Part shown: piece by piece, positions 2,328-12,548 of the stretch
Layout: the number at the start of each line of letters is the position of its first letter
How positions within the stretch are numbered: the stretch's first letter is position 1
DNA from: Chitinophaga arvensicola
GTDB lineage: Bacteria > Bacteroidota > Bacteroidia > Chitinophagales > Chitinophagaceae
NCBI RefSeq assembly: GCF_900110835.1
Contig: NZ_FOJG01000001.1
Location: 3,689,499 to 3,753,498 of the forward strand
Length of the DNA: 64,000 bases
Reading direction: 5' to 3'
Made by a program: the position numbers and the translations under genes
Notes under the pieces: model-generated
The model's database searches: none
What the model saw: only the letters and a program-made list of their open reading frames with translations
Told to the model about the DNA's origin: nothing

Positions 2328-3467
2328 ATGGGTTCAAGAGATGTCATTATTATAGGAGGAGGCTTGTCGGGCCTCACCAGCGCTATTCATTTATCGAAGG
2401 CTGGCTTGCATGTAACCGTAATTGAAAAAAGTAAGTACCCTTCGCACAAGGTATGCGGAGAGTATATATCCAACGAGGTACTACCTTATCTGCAATCACT
2501 GGGCGCCGATCCTGCGGTATTGCACCCTTCCCGGATCAACCGGTTAATTATTTCAGATCATTATGGCAAAACCCTGGAAACAATGCTTCCCCTGGGAGGT
2601 TTTGGGGTCAGCAGGTATACGTTCGACCAGTTTCTCATGCAGAAGGTGGTGGAAAACGGGGTGGAGTTAATTGAAGATACCGTTACCAATGTCGTCTTTG
2701 AAAACGACCGTTTCTTCATCGACACCAACAGCTACGGTGTGTTTTCTGCGCCGGTAGTATTGGGCGCCTATGGCAAAAGAGCCGCACTGGATGGAAAACT
2801 GGCCCGGGGATTCTTTAATGAGAAATCACCCTGGCTGGCCGTGAAATCACACTATCGCGGTAACTTCCCCGCAGATACAGTAGGGCTGCATAACTTCGAT
2901 GGCGGCTATTGCGGCGTATCAAAGGTAGAAGATGATATTCTCAACATCTGCTATCTCGTAAGTTATGAAAGCTTCAAAAGCTTTAAACAGATAGAAGCCC
3001 ACCGGGAGCAGGTGCTTTACCGTAATCAGCATCTGAAAGAGGTATTTGAAAACAGCACGCCGCTGTTTGATAAGCCTTTAACCATCAGCCAGGTGTCTTT
3101 TACCGAAAAAGAAAAAGTATTGCATCATATCCTGATGATCGGCGATACCGCCGGTCTTATTCACCCGCTCTGCGGCAATGGCATGGCCATGGCGATTCAG
3201 AGCGCGCAGATCGCGTCGGAAAAGGTGCTGGACTATTTTGCCGCGCCTACTAAAAACCGTTTGCTGATGGAGCAGGACTATACGAAATCCTGGAATAAAA
3301 TGTTCAGCAGCCGTATGCGTACCGGCCGTGTGTTGTCGCGCCTGTTCCGCAATGAAAAGCTGTCTGCTACCATGATGAAAGGACTGATCCTGTTTCCCGG
3401 CCTCTTGCCGGGCATCATCAGGCGCACCCATGGGAAACCGTTAAAAGCAGTACCGGAATGCGTATAA
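2328..3467 (+). CDS. FAD-dependent oxidoreductase of type III PKS operon
   Basis: First gene of the operon. The 379-residue flavoprotein starts with a Rossmann dinucleotide motif GGGLSG at residues 10-15, followed by the conserved Glu of FAD binding (VIEK). A later GDTAGLIHPLCGNGM stretch is the second FAD contact of the geranylgeranyl reductase/UbiH family. It may hydroxylate or reduce the polyketide product. The nearest described parallel I know is the flavoprotein hydroxylase SrsC beside a type III PKS and methyltransferase in Streptomyces griseus alkylquinone synthesis. Its end overlaps the methyltransferase start by 10 bases. Hydroxylation versus reduction cannot be decided from the sequence. 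Confidence 0.87.
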   Translation: MGSRDVIIIGGGLSGLTSAIHLSKAGLHVTVIEKSKYPSHKVCGEYISNEVLPYLQSLGADPAVLHPSRINRLIISDHYGKTLETMLPLGGFGVSRYTFDQFLMQKVVENGVELIEDTVTNVVFENDRFFIDTNSYGVFSAPVVLGAYGKRAALDGKLARGFFNEKSPWLAVKSHYRGNFPADTVGLHNFDGGYCGVSKVEDDILNICYLVSYESFKSFKQIEAHREQVLYRNQHLKEVFENSTPLFDKPLTISQVSFTEKEKVLHHILMIGDTAGLIHPLCGNGMAMAIQSAQIASEKVLDYFAAPTKNRLLMEQDYTKSWNKMFSSRMRTGRVLSRLFRNEKLSATMMKGLILFPGLLPGIIRRTHGKPLKAVPECV

Positions 3468-4168
3468 ATACCCGCTACCGGAGTATGGCCCCCGAAATTA
3501 TGGACGATTTCAATATGGAAGGGGAACTGCTGACAGCCACGCTCGACAAAATAGCACAGATCAATTTTTTACTGGGAGGCAACCGGATCACCCGGAAAGG
3601 CGTATCTGACCTCATCAGGGATATCCCTGTTACACAGGAAATCAATATCGTGGATATTGGCTGCGGCAACGGAGATATGCTCCGGCATCTGTCGGATGCC
3701 TTTGCTGCACAACGCAACCTGAAACTGATCGGCATTGATGCCAACCTGGCTACGGTAACGCATGCACGGAATTTATCAAAAGATTATCCGCATATTCAGT
3801 ATCATTGCCAGGACATTACCGAGCCCGCGTTCCGGGAGCAACGCTATGATATTATCTTATGCACGCTAACCCTGCATCATTTTAAAGAAGCAGAAATCCG
3901 GGAACTGATGTTACTGTTTTGTGAGCAGGCCCGCAAAGGAGTGGTGATCAACGATCTTCACCGGAGTATGCTGGCATACCGCCTGTTCCAGGCCATCTGC
4001 TTTGTATTCAACTTAAACAGGATGGTCCGGGAAGATGGGCTGGTATCCATTCTCCGGGGATTTAAAAGAAAAGAATTACAACATTTGTCGGCACAACTTC
4101 CTATTCATCAATATTCCCTCAAATGGAAATGGGCGTTCCGGTATCAATGGATAATCAATAAATTATGA
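3458..4168 (+). CDS. Class I SAM-dependent methyltransferase of type III PKS operon
   Basis: The 236-residue protein has SAM-binding motif I as VDIGCGNGD at residues 65-73 and an acidic residue closing the next strand (GIDAN). Motif IV/post-II (DIILCTLTLHHF) is also visible, with the Leu/His-His pattern common in UbiE/biotin-C-like methyltransferases. It probably methylates a phenol oxygen or ring carbon of the polyketide. The start overlaps the flavoprotein gene by 10 bases and the stop overlaps the PKS start in an ATGA, so translation is likely coupled. The other product-type methyltransferase in such clusters, SrsB, acts on resorcinol lipids; the substrate here is inferred. Confidence 0.87.
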   Translation: MRINTRYRSMAPEIMDDFNMEGELLTATLDKIAQINFLLGGNRITRKGVSDLIRDIPVTQEINIVDIGCGNGDMLRHLSDAFAAQRNLKLIGIDANLATVTHARNLSKDYPHIQYHCQDITEPAFREQRYDIILCTLTLHHFKEAEIRELMLLFCEQARKGVVINDLHRSMLAYRLFQAICFVFNLNRMVREDGLVSILRGFKRKELQHLSAQLPIHQYSLKWKWAFRYQWIINKL

Positions 4169-5217
4169 GCGTTAAAATTCAGACCGTCACAAAAGCACTA
4201 CCGCCTTATTCGAGAACAACCGACGAAATTATTCCCTTTTTATTACTATGGCTGCAAGGCCAGGAAGAGCGATTTATCCGGAAAGTGGTAAAGATATTTG
4301 AAGGCGCCGGCGTAGATAAACGTTATTCTATCATGGGACCGGAAGAAGTGTTTAACAACACCTCTTTTGAAGAGAAAAACAATCTCTATAAGAAAGAGAT
4401 GATCACCCTGGGCCGTACCTGCCTAGAGAGCGCGCTCAACAAAGCCGGCCTGAAAGGAACGGATATCGATTATATCATTACCGTGAGTTGTACGGGCATC
4501 ATGATTCCTTCCCTTGACGCTTACCTGATCAATGAACTGCAATTACGCCAGGATATTATTCGTTTACCCGTTACCGAAATGGGATGTGCTGCCGGTGTTT
4601 CCGGTATCATCTACGCCAAGAAAATGCTGGAAGCCAATCCGGGTAAAAGGGCCGCTGTAATAGCCGTGGAATCGCCCACCGCTACTTTTCAGCTGGATGA
4701 TTTTTCTATGCCCAATATTGTGAGCGCCGCCATATTCGGTGATGGTGCCGCCTGTGCTATTTTATCTTCCCATGAACAGGACAGCGGTCCTGAAATCATT
4801 GCAGAAGAAATGTATCACTTCTATGATGCGGAATACCTGATGGGATTCCATCTTTCCAATACCGGTCTGAAAATGGTGCTGGACATAGATGTGCCGGAGA
4901 AAATAGAATCGCATTTCGGTGATATCGTGCATCCTTTTCTCGCAAAAAATAACCTGACTATCGAAGACATTGACCACCTGATCTTTCACCCCGGTGGAAA
5001 GAAGATCATTAATTTGGTGGAAGAGCTCTTCCGCAGCATGGGGAAAAAATTAGACGATACAAAAGAAGTATTGCGCGCTTACGGCAACATGTCCAGCGCT
5101 ACGGTGTTATATGTACTGGAACGGTTTATGGAACAGTCGCTCCCCAAAGGAGATAAAGGATTGATGCTGAGTTTTGGTCCCGGCTTTTCTGCGCAAAGAA
5201 TATTATTACAATGGTAA
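4165..5217 (+). CDS. Type III polyketide synthase (chalcone synthase-like)
   Basis: The 350-residue enzyme has the complete type III PKS triad: Cys141 (in MGCAAG), His275 (in FHPGG) and Asn308 (in YGNMSSAT). Length is normal for the family. These homodimeric enzymes extend an acyl starter with malonyl-CoA without an ACP and cyclise the poly-beta-keto chain to resorcinols, pyrones or phloroglucinols. The neighbouring fatty-acid-like enzymes suggest a long acyl starter, as for alkylresorcinol or alkylpyrone synthases such as ArsB/ArsC of Azotobacter. The start is fixed by the ATGA overlap with the methyltransferase, and the SDR start lies inside the last codons (7-base overlap). Confidence 0.93.
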   Translation: MSVKIQTVTKALPPYSRTTDEIIPFLLLWLQGQEERFIRKVVKIFEGAGVDKRYSIMGPEEVFNNTSFEEKNNLYKKEMITLGRTCLESALNKAGLKGTDIDYIITVSCTGIMIPSLDAYLINELQLRQDIIRLPVTEMGCAAGVSGIIYAKKMLEANPGKRAAVIAVESPTATFQLDDFSMPNIVSAAIFGDGAACAILSSHEQDSGPEIIAEEMYHFYDAEYLMGFHLSNTGLKMVLDIDVPEKIESHFGDIVHPFLAKNNLTIEDIDHLIFHPGGKKIINLVEELFRSMGKKLDDTKEVLRAYGNMSSATVLYVLERFMEQSLPKGDKGLMLSFGPGFSAQRILLQW

Positions 5218-5987
5218 AAGAGTTTGCTCCTTACTGGGCATTGATTTTGGGTGGTAGTTCCGGACTGGGACTGGCGGCTGCACATAAACTGGCGGCGCAT
5301 GGCATGAACATCTGTATTGTACATCGCAATACCCGCGTAGAGCTGGCTGGTATACAACAGCAGTTCGACGAAATAAAAGCGAAAGGTGTGCAGTTGCTGA
5401 CCTTTAACACCGACATTCAACAACCGGAAAAACGCACCGAAGTGTTGGCTGCACTGAAAACCGCATTGGGTCCGGAAGGCCGTATCCGTTGCCTCCTGCA
5501 CAGCATCGCCCGGGGCAATCTGAAAGCCCTGTCCGATTTGCAGACAGATGATTTTACCAATACGATCGGCAATATGGCCGTGAGTTTATACGACTGGACA
5601 GCAGCAGCGCTGCAAAGGCAACTGTTTGCCGCAGATGCACGTATCCTTTCTTTTACCAGTGATGGTAGTTATAAGGCCATGCAGCATTACGCAGCGGTAT
5701 CAGCCGCGAAGGCTGCGCTGGAATCCATTACCCGGAGTATAGCGCTGGAATTTGCGCCGCAGGGCATCCGGGCCAATTGTATCCGGGCGGGTGTAACAGA
5801 TACGGCGTCGCTGCGTAAAATTCCGGGCAGTGAAGCTTTGCTGGCCTATAGCAGGGAACGGAATCCTTTTAAACGCATCACTACACCGGAAGATGTGGCC
5901 AATGTAGTGTATCTGCTGTGCAAAGATGAAGCCGCCTGGATCAATGGCGCCATTATACCGGTGGATGGAGGAACGCATATTCATTAG
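5211..5987 (+). CDS. SDR family enoyl-ACP reductase, FabL/FabI-like
   Basis: A 258-residue short-chain dehydrogenase. The cofactor site is GGSSGLG at residues 14-20. The catalytic pair is Tyr160 and Lys167, six residues apart (Y-x6-K), which is the spacing of enoyl-ACP reductases FabI/FabL, not the Y-x3-K of ketoreductases such as FabG. The LLHSIARG segment and the C-terminal IIPVDGG strand also fit FabL/FabI. It would reduce trans-2-enoyl-ACP with NAD(P)H in the dedicated chain-building set. It overlaps the PKS gene by 7 bases and is followed after 3 bases by the dehydratase. A ketoreductase role is less likely but not excluded. Confidence 0.82.
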   Translation: MVKEFAPYWALILGGSSGLGLAAAHKLAAHGMNICIVHRNTRVELAGIQQQFDEIKAKGVQLLTFNTDIQQPEKRTEVLAALKTALGPEGRIRCLLHSIARGNLKALSDLQTDDFTNTIGNMAVSLYDWTAAALQRQLFAADARILSFTSDGSYKAMQHYAAVSAAKAALESITRSIALEFAPQGIRANCIRAGVTDTASLRKIPGSEALLAYSRERNPFKRITTPEDVANVVYLLCKDEAAWINGAIIPVDGGTHIH

Positions 5988-5990
5988 CCC

Positions 5991-6437
5991 ATGACAAAAA
6001 ACGAAATTCTGCAGTTGTTGCCATATGCGCCTCCTTTTCTGTTTGTAGATACAATCGAAGAGATCGATGCGGAACAGGTAACCGGCACTTATACTTTCCG
6101 GCCAGATATGCCCTGTTACCAGGGTCATTTTAAAGGGCATCCCGTTACGCCGGGTGTGCTGCTTACTGAAGTAATGGCACAGGTAGGACTGGCTTGTCTG
6201 GGTATTTATTTATCGGGAGATGAGATAAAGGAACAGTTACCCGCTGTGGCCATGACGGCTTCCCAGGTTGATTTTTATTTGCCTGTTCTCCCCGGTGAAA
6301 CGGTAAAGGCGCAGGCTACCAAAATATATTTCCGTTTTAATAAATTAAAATGCCGCGTGGCATTGTACAATACAGCCGGCGAAATAGTTTGTGAAGGTAT
6401 TATTGAAGGCATGATCATCAAGCAAAAAAATGGGTAA
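5991..6437 (+). CDS. FabZ-type 3-hydroxyacyl-ACP dehydratase
   Basis: A 148-residue single hot-dog-fold protein. The family signature is intact: GHFKGHPVTPGV with catalytic His46 in GHF, and Glu60 in LLTEVMAQVG, fourteen residues later as in FabZ. It would dehydrate 3-hydroxyacyl-ACP to enoyl-ACP, feeding the adjacent reductase. Length is typical of FabZ (about 145-160). It follows the reductase by 3 bases and overlaps the ketosynthase by 8 bases, so it is made in the same transcript. Confidence 0.92.
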   Translation: MTKNEILQLLPYAPPFLFVDTIEEIDAEQVTGTYTFRPDMPCYQGHFKGHPVTPGVLLTEVMAQVGLACLGIYLSGDEIKEQLPAVAMTASQVDFYLPVLPGETVKAQATKIYFRFNKLKCRVALYNTAGEIVCEGIIEGMIIKQKNG

Positions 6438-7701
6438 CAGGGTCGTCATAACAGGATTGGGCGTAGTAGCGCCAAATGGAACAGGCATCGCCGCTTTCCG
6501 CGAAGCGATCCAAAAAGGTATATCCGGTATCCGTTATGAGGAACAGCTGGCAGCCTTAAAATTCTCCTGCCAGATTGCAGGCCGCCCCATTGTTCCGGAA
6601 GTATTGCAACAACAATATTTCGATGAACTTGAATTGAAACAACTGAGCAGTTCCGGCATTATCTACGGCGTTATTGCCGGTATGCAGGCCTGGGCAGATG
6701 CGGGATTGCCGTTAACGGATACGCCCGACTGGGACAGCGGTACCGTGTTTGGTGCTGGTTCCTCCGGCGTAGATAAATTCCGGGAAGCGGTGTATAAGGT
6801 AGATGAATTACAGGTGCGCCGGTTGGGCAGCACCGCCGTTACGCAGACTATGGCCAGTGGCATCAGTGCTTTTCTCGGGGGGAAACTTGCACTGGGCAAC
6901 CAGGTGACCACCAACTCTTCGGCCTGTACCACCGGTGCAGAAAGTGTGCTGATGGCTTATGAACGGATCAGAAGCGGCCAGGCCAAACGGATGCTGGCCG
7001 GTAGTACCGCCGACAGCGGCCCCTACATCTGGGGTGGCTTCGATGCCATGAAAGTAAGTACCTTCAAATATAACGAACGGCCGGAAGCGGCATCACGCCC
7101 CATGAGCGCCACCGCCAGCGGCATCGTTCCCGGCAGCGGCGCCGGCGCCCTGGTTCTCGAATCACTGGATAGTGCCCTGGAAAGAGGTGCTGCGATTTAC
7201 GCCGAAGTACTGGGCGGCCATATCAATTCCGGCGGTCAGCGCAACGGCGGCAGCATGACGGCTCCCAACCCGGATGCCGTACAACGTTGCATCAGCGCCG
7301 CTATCCGCAACGCGGGCATTGCGGCTGCGGATATTGATCTGATCAATGGTCACCTCACCGCTACCGGCAAGGACGCAGAAGAAATCGAAAACTGGTGTAT
7401 CGCCCTGCAACGTAAAGGAAATGACTTCCCGTATATCAATGCCCTCAAATCGATGGTGGGACATTGCCTGAGCGCCTCCGGCAGCATTGAACTGGTAGCA
7501 GTGGCGCTGCAATTGAAAGAAGGATTTATCTCACCCAATATCAACTGCGAAGACCTGCACCCGGATATTGCCGCGTTGGTAGCCAGAGAAAGAATTCCAC
7601 AGCAACTATTGTATAAAGACATAAATTTAGTGGCAAAAGCAAGCTTTGGATTTGGAGATGTAAACGCCTGTATTATACTGCAAAAATACCTGCAACCTTA
7701 A
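6430..7701 (+). CDS. Beta-ketoacyl-ACP synthase, FabF-like
   Basis: A 423-residue condensing enzyme with the FabF layout. The triad is Cys166 (NSSACTTG), His308 (NGHLTATG) and His345 (KSMVGHCLSASG), with the supporting Lys340. The usual HGTxT around the first His is here HLTAT, losing the Gly, and the second-His motif reads GHCLSASG. All catalytic residues remain, so it should be active but is diverged from housekeeping FabF. It would elongate the acyl chain with malonyl-ACP. It overlaps the dehydratase by 8 bases and precedes the ACP by 10. No malonyl transferase or second ketosynthase (chain-length factor) is present. Confidence 0.91.
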   Translation: MGNRVVITGLGVVAPNGTGIAAFREAIQKGISGIRYEEQLAALKFSCQIAGRPIVPEVLQQQYFDELELKQLSSSGIIYGVIAGMQAWADAGLPLTDTPDWDSGTVFGAGSSGVDKFREAVYKVDELQVRRLGSTAVTQTMASGISAFLGGKLALGNQVTTNSSACTTGAESVLMAYERIRSGQAKRMLAGSTADSGPYIWGGFDAMKVSTFKYNERPEAASRPMSATASGIVPGSGAGALVLESLDSALERGAAIYAEVLGGHINSGGQRNGGSMTAPNPDAVQRCISAAIRNAGIAAADIDLINGHLTATGKDAEEIENWCIALQRKGNDFPYINALKSMVGHCLSASGSIELVAVALQLKEGFISPNINCEDLHPDIAALVARERIPQQLLYKDINLVAKASFGFGDVNACIILQKYLQP

Positions 7702-7711
7702 ACGAAATAAC

Positions 7712-7966
7712 ATGGACAAAGAAACATTCATTGAGCAATTAAGAGAAATAGTAAGGCCCTATGCAAAAAACCAGGAAGCACTGGCCGGCATCAATGCCAA
7801 TACGGATTTTATCACGGATCTGAAAATCAACTCTGCTAACCTGGTAGATGTAGTACTCGACGTGGAAGAAAAATACGATATCGTGATCCAGAACGAAGAA
7901 ATGGAACGCATGCTCAATGTACAGGCGGCCATGGATATCGTGGAGGCAAAGCTGAAAGAGAAATGA
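7712..7966 (+). CDS. Acyl carrier protein
   Basis: An 84-residue acidic four-helix carrier protein. The pantetheine attachment serine is most likely Ser41 in KINSANLVDVVLDVEE; the usual DSL is here NSA, but the helix that follows is classic (LVDVVLDVEEKYDI). It would carry the growing acyl chain among the ketosynthase, dehydratase and reductase. The 3' end overlaps the phosphopantetheinyl transferase start in an ATGA, so carrier and activating enzyme are coupled. The altered context of Ser41 suggests a private ACP served by that transferase. Confidence 0.9.
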   Translation: MDKETFIEQLREIVRPYAKNQEALAGINANTDFITDLKINSANLVDVVLDVEEKYDIVIQNEEMERMLNVQAAMDIVEAKLKEK

Positions 7967-8505
7967 TCGGTAACGATATCATAGATCTTCCTGCTGCTGC
8001 AAAGGAAAGCCGTATCGATAGAAAAGGCTTCCTGGAAAAGCTGTTCCTGCCGGAAGAAATACAATCGATCCAATGTGCCGCCGACCCAATGGCGGCCACC
8101 TGGCTTTTGTGGAGTTGCAAAGAAGCAGCCTATAAAATTGATCATCGCTATACAAAAGAAAGAAAGTATAACCCGCAATACTTTGCCTGCACACTGTTAC
8201 AGCAGGAGGGGAGCATTGCGTCCGGAACGGTGACGTACGGCCGGCAGCGTTGTTACTTCCGCAGCCGCATTACGGAAAACTATATTCATACCTATGCGGC
8301 CATCACCCCCGCTTTACTGGATGAAATATCAGTAGCCATTTCATCCTCTCCTGATCTGCTGATACAACAATTACTCCCGCCCGACGAGTTTTTTTATAAA
8401 GATGAAGCTGGAATACCGTATATTCATCACCGTGACAATGATCAGCACACGCCCGTTTCCCTGAGTCATCATGGCCGGTATCTCGGACTGGTAAAAATGA
8501 CTTGA
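7963..8505 (+). CDS. 4'-phosphopantetheinyl transferase
   Basis: A 180-residue enzyme expected to transfer phosphopantetheine from CoA to the ACP encoded just upstream. The N-terminal IGNDIIDL holds the magnesium-binding Asp. The second motif is LWSCKEAAYKI (WxxKEAxxK), which supplies the catalytic Glu and Lys. The size lies between AcpS (about 125) and Sfp (about 225), as in the Bacteroidota group of this superfamily. It is the last gene of the eight-gene operon; the next gene starts 258 bases on with its own regulatory dyads. Confidence 0.88.
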   Translation: MIGNDIIDLPAAAKESRIDRKGFLEKLFLPEEIQSIQCAADPMAATWLLWSCKEAAYKIDHRYTKERKYNPQYFACTLLQQEGSIASGTVTYGRQRCYFRSRITENYIHTYAAITPALLDEISVAISSSPDLLIQQLLPPDEFFYKDEAGIPYIHHRDNDQHTPVSLSHHGRYLGLVKMT

Positions 8506-8763: not shown

Positions 8764-11082
8764 ATGTTCCAACGTTGTGTCAGACTAACCCTCTGCTCTC
8801 TTGCATTTTTATCAGCGTGCAACAGTGGAGGTGCACCCGATAAACAGCAGGAAAAACTACCTGAAATAGTAGATTACAATTTCGATATCCGGCCTATCTT
8901 ATCAGATAAGTGCTATGCCTGTCACGGTCCCGACGCCAATAAGCGGGAAGCCGGTCTGCGCCTCGATATCGCCGATAGTGCCTACAAAGCCCTGCGGGAA
9001 ACACCCGGCGTCCACGCATTGGTACCCGGCAATCCTATGGCCTCCGCAGTATACCAGCGTATCAGCACTACGGATACCGCCCAGCGCATGCCGCCGCCCT
9101 CATCGAATATGAGTCTCAGCGCATACGAAGTAAAACTCATTGAAAAATGGATTAAGCAGGGCGCTCAATATAAACCGCACTGGGCATTTGCAGTACCTGT
9201 AACACCTGCATTGCCAAAAGTAAATAACAGCAAATGGGCGCGCAATGAAATAGACCAATTCGTATTGGCCCGCATGGAGGAGCATGGTCTGGAACCCAAT
9301 CCCGCTGCAGACCAGGAACGATTGCTGAAACGTCTTTGCCTCGATCTCACCGGCTTGCCACCCTCTCCCGAAAGAATGGACCGCTTCGCAAAAGATACCA
9401 GCGAGCAGGGATATGAACGGATGGTAGATGAACTGTTGCAAGACAGCGCCTATGGTGAGAAAATGGCCGTTCACTGGATGGATGTAGCCCGCTATGCAGA
9501 TTCACACGGTTACCAGGACGATAACTACCGGACCATGTGGCCCTGGCGCGACTGGGTGATCCATGCATTCAATGAAAATCTGTCTTACAAAGACTTTATC
9601 ACCTGGCAACTTGCAGGAGACATGATGCCCGGTTCTACCCGCGAACAACTCCTGGCCTCGGGCTTCAACCGTAATCATAAAATTACAGAGGAAGGTGGTG
9701 TGATAGATGAAGAATACCGCATTGAATATGTAACAGACCGCACCAATACTTTTGGAAAAAGTTTGCTGGGTATCACCATCGAATGCGCCCACTGCCACGA
9801 TCATAAATATGATCCGTTTTCACAGAAAGAATATTATGAGCTCTTCGCCTTCTTTAACAATGTAAAGGAAGTAGGCCTGCAATCTGTAGTGGGTGGTCCT
9901 GAAACATACGCCAAAACACCTTACATGGAGATCACAAAAGAAGATCTCAAAGGGGTACTCAGCTTTATCAATAAACAGGACACCAATAAACTCATCGTTT
10001 CCGTAATGGGCGAAAAAGATACTACCCGGAAAACGTATATCCTTGGCCGTGGTAACTACGACAACCCTACGCTGGAAGTACAGCCGGAAACACCACATGC
10101 AGTGCTGCCTTTCGATGTGAAACAATACCCGGCCAATCGCCTCGGCCTCGCTGGCTGGCTGTTTGATAAAAAAAATCCACTCACCGCCAGGGTGTTTGTA
10201 AACCAGCAGTGGCAGGAGATCTTTGGCAGGGGTATCGTGAAAAGTGTGGGTGATTTCGGAATGCAGGGAGATCTGCCTACCAACCCGGAACTGCTCGACT
10301 GGCTCGCGGTCGACTTCATGCAACACGGCTGGAATATCAAACGTCTTATGAAGCAACTGGTAATGACATCCACCTATCGTCAGTCCGCCACTATTTCAAA
10401 GGAGAAGCTGAAAGCCGATCCTGAAAATATATACCTTTCCCGTGGTCCGCGTTTCCGCCTGCCTGCAGAAGGCGTGCGCGACCTGGTGCTAAAAAGCAGC
10501 GGACTCCTGGTACCTGTTATTGGTGGTCCCAGCGTTAAACCTTATCAACCTAAAGGGCTATGGGAAATGGCTACTTCCGGCAGGGGACTGCTCGCCACCT
10601 ACCGCCAGGATCATGGGGAAAGCCTGTACCGCAGAGGGTTGTATACCTTTATTAAACGCACGGTGCCGCCACCTTCTATGATGATCTTCGACGCCAGTAA
10701 CCGTGATCAGTGTGAAGTAAAACGTGCCAATACCAATACGCCGTTGCAGGCACTCATTATGCTCAATGACCCTACCGTACTGGAAGCCTCCAGGGTACTG
10801 GCTTCGCGGCTGATGCAGCAAAACAATAACGTGGAAAAGAATATCCGCCAGGCATTCCGCCAGATTGTTTGCCGCACCCCGCAGGCGTCGGAAGTCGCCA
10901 TGCTGCAGAAATATTATGAACAGCAACAACAGCACTATAAACAACAACCTGCCAGCGCCGTCAAACTGCTGGAACATGGCGAATATCCTATGGCGCAGCA
11001 GCTGGACAACGCCTCCTGGGCAGCCATGATGCAGGTAATCACCACTATTTATAACCTGGAAGAAACGCTTTCCAAAACGTAA
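8764..11082 (+). CDS. PSCyt1/DUF1549/DUF1553 c-type cytochrome lipoprotein
   Basis: A 772-residue planctomycete-type protein. Lipobox LSAC places the lipidated Cys at residue 19. A PSCyt1 haem domain follows with CYACH at 50-54 and the GPDANKREAGLRLD signature. Then come a DUF1549 domain (about 155-360) that contains a second CxxCH, CAHCH at 341-345, and a DUF1553 domain (about 460-750) with NRLGLAGWLFDKKNPLTAR and RRGLYTF segments. The enzymatic role of DUF1549/1553 is unresolved in what I know; the haem sites imply electron transfer at the membrane surface. It starts a four-gene operon, 11 bases before the DUF1501 gene. Confidence 0.9.
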   Translation: MFQRCVRLTLCSLAFLSACNSGGAPDKQQEKLPEIVDYNFDIRPILSDKCYACHGPDANKREAGLRLDIADSAYKALRETPGVHALVPGNPMASAVYQRISTTDTAQRMPPPSSNMSLSAYEVKLIEKWIKQGAQYKPHWAFAVPVTPALPKVNNSKWARNEIDQFVLARMEEHGLEPNPAADQERLLKRLCLDLTGLPPSPERMDRFAKDTSEQGYERMVDELLQDSAYGEKMAVHWMDVARYADSHGYQDDNYRTMWPWRDWVIHAFNENLSYKDFITWQLAGDMMPGSTREQLLASGFNRNHKITEEGGVIDEEYRIEYVTDRTNTFGKSLLGITIECAHCHDHKYDPFSQKEYYELFAFFNNVKEVGLQSVVGGPETYAKTPYMEITKEDLKGVLSFINKQDTNKLIVSVMGEKDTTRKTYILGRGNYDNPTLEVQPETPHAVLPFDVKQYPANRLGLAGWLFDKKNPLTARVFVNQQWQEIFGRGIVKSVGDFGMQGDLPTNPELLDWLAVDFMQHGWNIKRLMKQLVMTSTYRQSATISKEKLKADPENIYLSRGPRFRLPAEGVRDLVLKSSGLLVPVIGGPSVKPYQPKGLWEMATSGRGLLATYRQDHGESLYRRGLYTFIKRTVPPPSMMIFDASNRDQCEVKRANTNTPLQALIMLNDPTVLEASRVLASRLMQQNNNVEKNIRQAFRQIVCRTPQASEVAMLQKYYEQQQQHYKQQPASAVKLLEHGEYPMAQQLDNASWAAMMQVITTIYNLEETLSKT

Positions 11083-11093
11083 TAAACAGGACA

Positions 11094-12548
11094 ATGAAAA
11101 ACGAATTCATAGAACATCATCTGAATATGAACCGCCGGAAATTCCTGTCGCGGCTCAGTCTCGGCGTAGGCAGTCTGGCTCTTGGCTCGCTGCTTATCCC
11201 TGACATTTTTGGTAAAGGCGGTGCAGAGGAAGCGCCCTTTATTCCCGGTATCCCGCACTTTGCGCCGAAAGCCAAAAGAGTGATCTACCTGTTTCAGAAT
11301 GGTGCGCCTTCCCAACTGGAAAGTTTCGACTATAAACCTAAACTACGGGAAATGATGGGGCAGGAACTGCCGCCTTCTATCCGCATGGGGCAACGTCTTA
11401 CCGGCATGACTTCCGGGCAGACCTCCTTTCCGCTGGTGGGCTCCCACTTCGATTTTCAACAGTATGGCGAAGCCAGGGCCTGGATCAGTGACCTGTTTCC
11501 ACATACTGCCAAAATAGTGGACGATATCTGTATTGTACGATCCATGTTTACAGAAGCGATCAACCATGATCCGGCACTTACCTTTTTCCAGACGGGCGCC
11601 CAGCAGGGCAACCGTGCCAGCTTCGGCTCCTGGATGAGTTACGGCCTGGGCAGCGAAAATAAAAACCTGCCCGCCTTCTGCGTACTGCTTTCGAGAGGTA
11701 AAGGCAACGGCCAGGGCGTATATTCCAAACTATGGTCCAATGGCTTTTTAGATAGCATCCACCAGGGGGTGCAGTTCAGCAGCGGGGAAAGTCCTGTGTT
11801 GTATCTCAATAACCCGGAAGGTATTGATATGGCCAACCGCCGCCAGATGCTGGATCAGCTGGCAGCTTTGAATGATCAGTCGTACAAGGAATTTGGTGAT
11901 CCCGAAATCAACACCAAAATACAACAGTACGAAATGGCCTACCGTATGCAAACGGCGGTACCTGAACTGACGGATCTCTCCAAAGAATCAGATGATATCA
12001 TTAAACTCTATGGACCCGATTGCCTGGTGCCCGGCACGTTTGCGGCCAACTGTCTTTTGTCCAGGAAGCTGTCTGAGAGCGGCGTACGCTTCATCCAGCT
12101 GTATCACCAGGGCTGGGATCAGCATGGCAACCTGCCCAATGAAATGGCCGGACAGGCAAAGGATGTAGACCGTGCGTCGGCGGCACTCATCACCGATCTC
12201 AAACAACGCGGCTTACTCGATGAAACCCTGGTGATCTGGGGCGGTGAATTTGGCAGAACGAATTTCTGCCAGGGTAAGATGACGGCTGATAACTATGGCC
12301 GGGATCACCATCCCCGCTGCTTCTCCATCTGGATGGCCGGTGGCGGAGTAAAGCCAGGTATCGTTTACGGGGAAACAGATGAATTCGGATATAATATTGT
12401 AAAAGATCCGGTACACGTGCATGATTTTCATGCCACCATCTTACACCTCATGGGACTGGATCACGAGAAACTCACTTTTAAACACCAGGGTCGCCGTTAT
12501 AGGCTTACAGACGTTGCCGGAAAAGTAATACCGGGATTGATGGCCTGA
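11094..12548 (+). CDS. Tat-exported DUF1501 family protein
   Basis: A 484-residue member of the DUF1501 family, related to the alkaline phosphatase/sulfatase superfamily. The N-terminus has a twin-arginine signal, NRRKFLSR at residues 13-20, followed by a hydrophobic stretch, so it is probably exported folded. Family motifs include LFQNGAPSQLESFDYKP, INHDPA, and WGGEFGRT with a following GRDHHPRCFS, whose Asp/His residues are plausible metal ligands. The ATG at 11094 is preferred over the internal Met12 because such proteins usually carry a short charged leader before NRRKF. DUF1501 genes characteristically sit directly after DUF1549/1553 genes, as here. Confidence 0.9.
   Translation: MKNEFIEHHLNMNRRKFLSRLSLGVGSLALGSLLIPDIFGKGGAEEAPFIPGIPHFAPKAKRVIYLFQNGAPSQLESFDYKPKLREMMGQELPPSIRMGQRLTGMTSGQTSFPLVGSHFDFQQYGEARAWISDLFPHTAKIVDDICIVRSMFTEAINHDPALTFFQTGAQQGNRASFGSWMSYGLGSENKNLPAFCVLLSRGKGNGQGVYSKLWSNGFLDSIHQGVQFSSGESPVLYLNNPEGIDMANRRQMLDQLAALNDQSYKEFGDPEINTKIQQYEMAYRMQTAVPELTDLSKESDDIIKLYGPDCLVPGTFAANCLLSRKLSESGVRFIQLYHQGWDQHGNLPNEMAGQAKDVDRASAALITDLKQRGLLDETLVIWGGEFGRTNFCQGKMTADNYGRDHHPRCFSIWMAGGGVKPGIVYGETDEFGYNIVKDPVHVHDFHATILHLMGLDHEKLTFKHQGRRYRLTDVAGKVIPGLMA

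Follow-up and report, generated by a model that had tools for sequence, protein, structure and literature searches.

An eight-gene operon of Chitinophaga arvensicola links three literatures, those of the Azotobacter phenolic lipids, of the hierridin-like triads and of the flexirubin-type dialkylresorcinols. It occupies positions 2328-8505, on the + strand, of a 64,000-nucleotide stretch of contig NZ_FOJG01000001.1 (assembly GCF_900110835.1), the whole of which is called the window here, in a host genome of 8.3 Mb. In the ars locus of Azotobacter vinelandii, as in this operon, a dedicated fatty-acid synthase (FAS) stands beside type III polyketide synthase (PKS) genes (PMC6274091, PMC3098273). 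One of these accounts describes ArsB and ArsC as taking acyl groups directly from the acyl carrier protein (ACP) of ArsA, and GCS and SCO7671 as using hexanoyl-ACP; the residue that switches cyclisation between the two Ars enzymes is Trp281 in ArsB and Gly284 in ArsC (PMC6274091). CylI is reported to be fed through type I PKSs with a chain that starts on a free-standing ACP (PMC8086630). In the planctomycetotal operons and the cyanobacterial hidABC operon, as in the one studied here, a type III PKS is accompanied by a single methyltransferase and a single oxidoreductase (PMC10896814, PMC8086630). Their products, as given there, are methylated long-chain 5-alkylresorcinols, hierridin B being also hydroxylated. 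Pentadecyl- and heptadecylresorcinols are described as products of the Planctomycetota triads or of variants of these (PMC10896814). In the DarA/DarB clusters for dialkylresorcinols and flexirubins an alkyl-substituted ring is also made, but the ring former described is DarB and not a type III PKS (PMC3992019).

The operon in the window consists of eight co-directional open reading frames (ORFs) in the order flavin-dependent oxidoreductase (FAD), methyltransferase (MT), type III PKS, short-chain dehydrogenase/reductase (SDR, below also the reductase), dehydratase (DH), ketosynthase (KS), ACP and 4'-phosphopantetheinyl transferase (PPTase). The ars FAS carries a built-in ACP domain (type I) and serves two PKSs, whereas here KS, DH, reductase and ACP are each encoded by a small ORF of their own and are not parts of an ars-type multidomain FAS, and a single PKS is accompanied by an MT and a flavoprotein. 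The three-gene hid and planctomycete operons, as presented in the cited accounts, include no ACP, KS, DH, enoyl reductase or PPTase; PKS, MT and oxidoreductase share one operon there as they do here, but the gene order is unlike FAD-MT-PKS, and the comparison is one of gene content. The parallel with the Ars and Srs systems drawn in an earlier sequence-only reading of this DNA needs adjusting: the nearest published operon logic is the MT-oxidoreductase-PKS triad (PMC10896814, as far as it is described there), with Ars as a parallel for a probable direct acyl transfer from ACP. That reading had also placed an acyl-supply set and a decorating set in a single operon with one type III PKS, and this is supported by the gene content and by the conservation of the operon. 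Judging from the gene content, we consider it probable that this is an uncharacterised phenolic-lipid operon, of the alkylresorcinol or alkylpyrone type, with a dedicated type II acyl feeder.

Conservation of the operon in Bacteroidota

A scan of named genomes (tblastn, E <= 1e-3) returned at least 543 relatives of the PKS of any closeness. The best 80 of these are 73-93% identical to the PKS of the window, the nearest (93%) being that of C. polysaccharea CSUR P9684, and they belong to Chitinophaga, Flavobacterium, Pedobacter, Dyadobacter, Aequorivita, Gelidibacter, Lacinutrix, Psychroserpens and other genera. Together with five loci from a family search and four from a phylum search they form a set of 89 loci, in which two pairs with identical PKSs and equally long contigs (L032/L061 and L033/L059) are almost certainly the same genomes counted twice. 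The PKS, MT and DH genes are present in all 89 loci (including L137, where the picking of the longest ORF had overlooked the DH), KS and ACP in 88, FAD in 87, PPTase in 84 and the reductase in 33. One locus near a contig end (L074) is missing KS, ACP and PPTase.

Copies of the gene set come from Chitinophagaceae, Flavobacteriaceae, Sphingobacteriaceae and Spirosomataceae, and the order FAD-MT-PKS-(reductase)-DH-KS-ACP-PPTase holds outside a few exceptional loci. The arrangement is not peculiar to the C. arvensicola genome.

The residues expected for catalysis are equally well kept. The Cys141/His275/Asn308 triad of the PKS, which the sequence-only reading had found intact, is so in the window and in 89 of 89 orthologs, and His46 and Glu60 of the DH are invariant in 89 of 89 loci. 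The same is true of Cys166/His308/Lys340/His345 of the KS (88/88), Ser41 of the ACP (88/88) and Asp5/Lys53/Glu54/Lys58 of the PPTase (84/84).

An even draw of 395 Bacteroidota genomes was searched with the PKS (E <= 1e-100) and with the KS (E <= 1e-110), and the two lists were compared by eye. A PKS ortholog was found in 33 genomes (64-100% identity) and a KS match in 38, of which 33 (at least 61% identity) are in exactly the 33 genomes that have the PKS. In every one of these 33 genomes the two genes lie on the same contig and the same strand, 451-1533 bp apart. Chance clustering is rejected, since not one of the 33 genomes with a PKS ortholog is without the KS ortholog. The remaining five KS matches are 50-54% identical; the four looked at (L133-L136) sit in other clusters, and the fifth belongs to genome G237.

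The proposed acyl-feeder cassette and its homologs beside DarB and DarH

Seven other KS matches in the host genome are 26-34% identical to the operon KS, and the five host paralogs placed in a KS tree all fall outside the clade of operon KSs. The possibility that housekeeping fatty-acid genes came to lie beside the PKS by accident is rejected on these two grounds. In the tree, which has 44 rows, the 18 operon KSs form one clade (support 100/99), and all 39 cassette-type KSs are separated from the five host paralogs (100/100), two of which (L158) have very long branches, where false joins are possible.

Relatives of the cassette occur away from the PKS. At E <= 1e-100 the KS has a match in 21 of 195 Chitinophagaceae genomes, six with the PKS operon and 15 without it. 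In seven of these 15 (L133, L186-L191) a reductase-DH-KS cassette lies next to DarB, DarH and two ABC genes, divergent from them; an ACP accompanies it in six of the seven (not in L189) and a PPTase in four (L133, L186, L188, L191). Three others (L185, L193, L195) have a related cassette on a contig that ends before the neighbours are visible, and the last five (L192, L194, L196-L198) have a related KS with other neighbours. Outside Chitinophagaceae the full cassette and the DarB/DarH arrangement are found in one further genome (G289, locus L134), which brings the total to eight. In L134 DarB scores 634.8 bits (cut-off 550) and DarH 453.7 bits (cut-off 300) with their NCBIfam models; DarB of L133 reaches 614.7 bits, and in the other six loci DarB was identified by BLAST against L134 (64-74%).

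In the KS tree the KSs of these eight loci and of the three loci at contig ends form a second clade (98/100), with L194 and L196 as nearest kin (95/97); the support for a join between this group and the operon clade is weak (84/63). The host has a DarB of its own (616 bits), in a cluster without such a cassette in the 32 kb examined. The cassette looks like a portable feeder, and its position next to DarB leads us to infer, from that position only, that it feeds DarB in those eight genomes.

A cassette beside DarB and DarH may, on the other hand, serve a flexirubin-like product, and flexirubin is described as an ester of a dialkylresorcinol and a polyene acid (PMC3992019). It is conceivable by analogy that in the operon the cassette makes a separate acyl chain which is joined later to the PKS product, as an ester or as a second alkyl arm, and does not provide the PKS starter. 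We regard this as improbable, as the 86 loci whose flanks were grouped have no acyltransferase or ligase as a constant neighbour of the operon, and the Ars and CylI precedents are cases of starter supply.

Two further gene arrangements were seen among the KS relatives. In L192 (7902-11931), L197 and L198 two tandem KS genes of the cassette kind are found with a FabZ-like gene, and in L192 an SDR resembling enoyl-ACP reductases (PF13561) adjoins them. In a distant Bacteroidota family (f24; L135:7825-12189 and L136:8597-13746) DH, KS and ACP genes are accompanied by a conserved protein of 378-416 aa, which has no NCBIfam match, and by a glycosyltransferase-like protein.

The polyketide synthase and its relatives

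The PKS is a member of the type III family, its Chal_sti_synt N and C domains scoring 74.6 and 75.5 bits against cut-offs of 27 bits. An AlphaFold2 model based on 30 orthologs (pLDDT 84.6, pTM 0.87; residues 137-139, shortly before the catalytic Cys, below 50) has Pks11 as its best structural match (Z 39.8, 331 residues, root-mean-square deviation 2.4), followed by CylI (Z 38.4), which has been solved with an acyl substrate and with a resorcinol product. Pks11 is also the nearest solved PKS by sequence, THNS being the next distinct one and CylI the fourth. The likeness of the model to Pks11 and CylI hints at alkyl chemistry. The PKS is not a DarB, as it scores 24.8 bits with the DarB model (NF053539, cut-off 550).

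The best NCBIfam model for the PKS is DpgA (NF042429, 177.9 bits), and this, with the place of THNS among the solved relatives, could mean that the enzyme makes a short-chain or malonyl-primed product in the manner of DpgA or THNS, and that the cassette reduces a polyketide and not a fatty acid. The score, however, is far under the DpgA cut-off of 425 bits, the profile searches gave no DpgB-, DpgC- or DpgD-like call for any of the eight genes, and the closest structures are those of alkyl-chain enzymes. We therefore hold this to be very unlikely, and a phenolic-lipid product remains the reading that we favour.

More distant PKSs are common in the family of the host. A search of the 195 Chitinophagaceae genomes at E <= 1e-20 gave a PKS match in 97: six are of the operon type (71-100% identity) and the rest lie at 28-39%. 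A sampled genome of the host's own genus (G106) had no match at this threshold. In a group of 17 short loci (L015-L031, PKS identity 29-35%) MT and FAD homologs adjoin the PKS in 14; two others show the MT only, on a shortened stretch, and L017 shows neither. In the longer stretches L043-L050 the triad is present in eight of eight and no cassette gene was found, and L051, which is the same place as L017, has the PKS alone. Six further longer stretches (L037-L042, PKS identity 34-39%) hold a lone PKS with none of the other operon genes nearby; for one of them (L038) the closest solved relative is again Pks11. The triads of Chitinophagaceae have the same three homologous genes as the operon, but in the order PKS-MT-FAD, with 29-35% identity in the PKS and with no cassette gene found in the stretches examined. 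The triad is the common ground with Planctomycetota and Cyanobacteria, and the cassette is the addition.

In a plasmid collection no close relative of the operon appeared among the matches listed. The best identities among these were 35% for the PKS (225 records), 34% for the KS (ten matches listed of 992 records) and 38% for the FAD protein (29 records), and the triad was not seen in the annotations of four plasmid records, the gene tables of which are incomplete. One Sphingobium plasmid record has a match to the FAD protein of the window directly downstream of a chalcone synthase gene; a Novosphingobium record is unannotated. Another plasmid, recorded as Stenotrophomonas rhizophila (CP031730.1, L143), carries FosB, rsgA and a pair of PKS and isoprenylcysteine methyltransferase genes and has a Bacillales-like look; this record may be misassigned.

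The optional reductase and the saturation of the chain

Enoyl reductases of the FabL/FabI kind have the motif Y-x6-K and ketoreductases Y-x3-K. The SDR of the operon has Y-x6-K in place of Y-x3-K, and Tyr160, Lys167 and Val163, the latter at the position of the ketoreductase Tyr, are kept in 33 of 33 orthologs. A phmmer search of the PDB found no match at 1e-30; at 1e-15 the best solved relative, which could be aligned, is FabL (3oic). The best NCBIfam model, FabL (NF005975), gives 167.8 bits, below its cut-off of 328, and the protein is not called a FabL equivalog. It is probably an enoyl-ACP reductase, as the sequence-only reading had fairly called it. The motif and the FabL match disfavour the SDR as the ketoreductase that the operon lacks.

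The gene is present in all loci examined of Chitinophaga (13 named), g2, Dyadobacter, Aequorivita, Gelidibacter, Lacinutrix and Psychroserpens; it is found in one of 40 named Flavobacterium loci and in none of eight Pedobacter loci. On a PKS tree of 58 rows (made by a quick method, with 20 of 53 inner branches drawn open) four changes are the fewest that explain this distribution. Since the reductase is optional, either the set relies on fatty-acid enzymes of the cell, or the saturation of the side chain varies by lineage.

The absence of the reductase from nearly all Flavobacterium and all Pedobacter loci would also fit an operon in which KS, DH and ACP act in the way of aryl-polyene enzymes and give the PKS a polyunsaturated chain, from which the reductase removes only some of the double bonds. 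An antiSMASH 'T3pks-arylpolyene' cluster has been mentioned for an Aequorivita strain, with the data not shown (PMC6139392), and this cluster may be the same operon. Against such a polyene stand the retention of the reductase in all 13 named Chitinophaga loci and the low identity of the operon KS to the other KSs of the host, which include those of a cluster that looks polyene-like by gene content only. Moreover there is no ketoreductase in the operon, whereas the flexirubin polyene cluster is described as having the candidates FlxB and FlxV (PMC3992019). We think a polyene chain unlikely, though less so than the two alternatives discussed above, and prefer a fatty-acyl chain fed to the PKS.

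Proposed pathway and points that weigh against it

The proposal goes beyond what was observed, which is the content and order of the genes, the catalytic residues, the strict co-occurrence of PKS and KS, the variable presence of the reductase and the homologous cassette next to DarB/DarH. The reactions, the hand-over from ACP to PKS, the length of the chain and the type of ring are all inferred. The PPTase would presumably arm the ACP of the operon, on which the FabF-like KS, the FabZ-like DH and, where present, the FabL-like reductase could elongate the chain; the ketoreductase (FabG), the malonyl transfer (FabD) and the initiation (FabH) would be borrowed from the cell. The acyl group, which would probably come directly from the ACP, would then be loaded onto Cys141 of the PKS, extended with malonyl-CoA and cyclised. 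Finally the MT may methylate the ring and the flavoprotein, of the geranylgeranyl-reductase (GGR) type, hydroxylate or oxidise it.

A number of observations weigh against this proposal. Cassette-free triads are common in the same family, which means that the feeder is not required for such chemistry, and 56 of the 89 copies lack the reductase, so that the chain may be unsaturated. The identity of the PKS to Pks11 and CylI is about 25-31% (about 30% for Pks11), their Z scores are only some 3-5 above those of many plant enzymes, and Pks11 is an alkylpyrone synthase that uses acyl-CoA; the rank of DpgA among the NCBIfam models points the same way. The gene set is also not uniform. Three Aequorivita loci and L139 are without the PPTase, and in two Dyadobacter loci (L123, L127) MT and PKS are on one strand and reductase, DH, KS, ACP and PPTase on the other, with no FAD gene in 21 kb. 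In the copy of Lacinutrix neustonica (L100) FAD, MT and KS are in several ORF pieces, and one of the 33 KS matches of the genome draw (G275) has an in-frame stop.

More tentatively, and with rather less confidence than in the phenolic-lipid assignment itself, we suggest that reductase-DH-KS-ACP-PPTase could be a portable module plugged into two unrelated ring formers, the type III PKS and DarA/DarB. The PKS would depend on its own acyl-ACP and not on acyl-CoA, and the operon would be a type II-FAS-fed counterpart of the Azotobacter system, present in about 8% of the sampled Bacteroidota (33/395) and making an undescribed methylated and oxidised phenolic lipid. Should this PKS accept acyl groups from no source but its own ACP, the operon would offer small separate proteins for studying the transfer from ACP to a type III PKS.

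Earlier mentions in the literature

A described operon or product of this kind was not found in the open-access literature searched, in agreement with the sequence-only reading, which knew of no described product; a Dyadobacter study (PMC9606717), looked through for four terms, contains none of them. Precedents exist for each half, and in the same literature there appears to be no description of the two combined, of how widely the combination is spread or of the feeder cassette that is shared. An Aequorivita type III PKS is reported as 69% identical to one of Zobellia galactanivorans (PMC6139392), and the latter is the likeliest place for overlooked prior work. Type III PKS clusters are said to make up about 9-11% of the biosynthetic clusters of Flavobacteriaceae, with no product assigned in the accounts cited (PMC7440613, PMC10734526), and part of this class is probably the operon described here.

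Gene assignments

Roles were assigned by Pfam and NCBIfam profile searches on all eight proteins (Table 1), and these, with the ORF positions, bear out the eight overlapping or nearly touching genes and the roles first read from the sequence. Neighbouring genes overlap by 10 (FAD/MT), 4 (MT/PKS), 7 (PKS/SDR), 8 (DH/KS) and 4 bp (ACP/PPTase), and gaps of 3 and 10 bp separate SDR from DH and KS from ACP.

Table 1. Genes of the operon, with positions in the window
Predicted product	Position	Strand	Basis
FAD-dependent oxidoreductase, GGR/UbiH-like superfamily	2328..3467	+	Pfam Lycopene_cycl and FAD_binding_3 over cut-off
Class I S-adenosylmethionine methyltransferase, PRK06202/UbiG-like	3458..4168	+	Methyltransf_25, 58.5 bits
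Type III PKS, Cys141/His275/Asn308	4165..5217	+	Chal_sti_synt N and C domains
FabL-type SDR	5211..5987	+	NF005975 (FabL) best NCBIfam model; Y160-x6-K167
FabZ-like 3-hydroxyacyl-ACP dehydratase, His46/Glu60	5991..6437	+	PF07977, 54 bits, over cut-off
FabF-like elongating KS, Cys166/His308/Lys340/His345	6430..7701	+	ketoacyl-synt N and C domains over cut-off
ACP, attachment site Ser41	7712..7966	+	weakest profile assignment of the eight
4'-phosphopantetheinyl transferase	7963..8505	+	PF01648, 36.2 bits, over cut-off

Several of the more specific models remain under their cut-offs. These are TIGR02032 for the FAD protein (104.2 bits, cut-off 158.8), NF004851 for the MT (122.9, cut-off 243), the FabF model for the KS (262.6, cut-off 493.75) and, for the ACP, PF00550 (18.0, cut-off 20.8) and the NCBIfam ACP models (at most 38 bits). 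As the DpgA, FabL and FabF scores are under the curated cut-offs, the operon proteins are relatives of the named enzymes and not equivalogs. By these assignments the FAD protein is a probable ring hydroxylase or oxidase, and the MT probably methylates an oxygen or a carbon of the ring. Pfam and NCBIfam gave no ketoreductase, ketosynthase III or malonyl transferase among the eight genes; the set is not a complete type II FAS, and 'partial', the word used for it before, is correct.

Flanking genes

The flanks were compared by grouping ORFs of at least 70 aa over 86 loci. The eight operon genes are the eight largest groups, and no ninth fixed gene is among the grouped flanking ORFs of these loci. 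The next-largest groups (23, 23, 23, 20 and 19 loci) are confined to Flavobacterium or unclassified Flavobacteriaceae, and some flanking families are long-range neighbours inside a single genus. One family resembling cyclic nucleotide monophosphate (cNMP)-binding regulators (e.g. L035:4370-4969; the call is a Pfam match on one member) is present in 17 of the 86 loci and in three bacterial families, at a median of 3.9 kb upstream of the PKS start (range -7.3 to +10.5 kb) and on the PKS strand in 14 of 17. A regulator, perhaps Crp-like, may thus accompany some copies of the operon. Apart from it and the ORFs antisense to operon genes, no further family reaches five loci in two or more bacterial families; seven small groups, each with two to four loci, are also shared between families.

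In the fragmented L. neustonica copy a small insert-like ORF pair precedes the ACP gene, and that copy is either decayed or mis-sequenced. Directly upstream of the operon in the window, on the - strand (1792-2133), there is a gene for a short Lys/Ala-rich protein, histone H1-like by eye and with no Pfam match. Downstream, at 8764-12548, two genes encode proteins with planctomycete-cytochrome/DUF1549/DUF1553 and DUF1501 domains. In five Chitinophaga loci, two of them from one genome, homologs of both (79-98%) likewise lie downstream of the operon.

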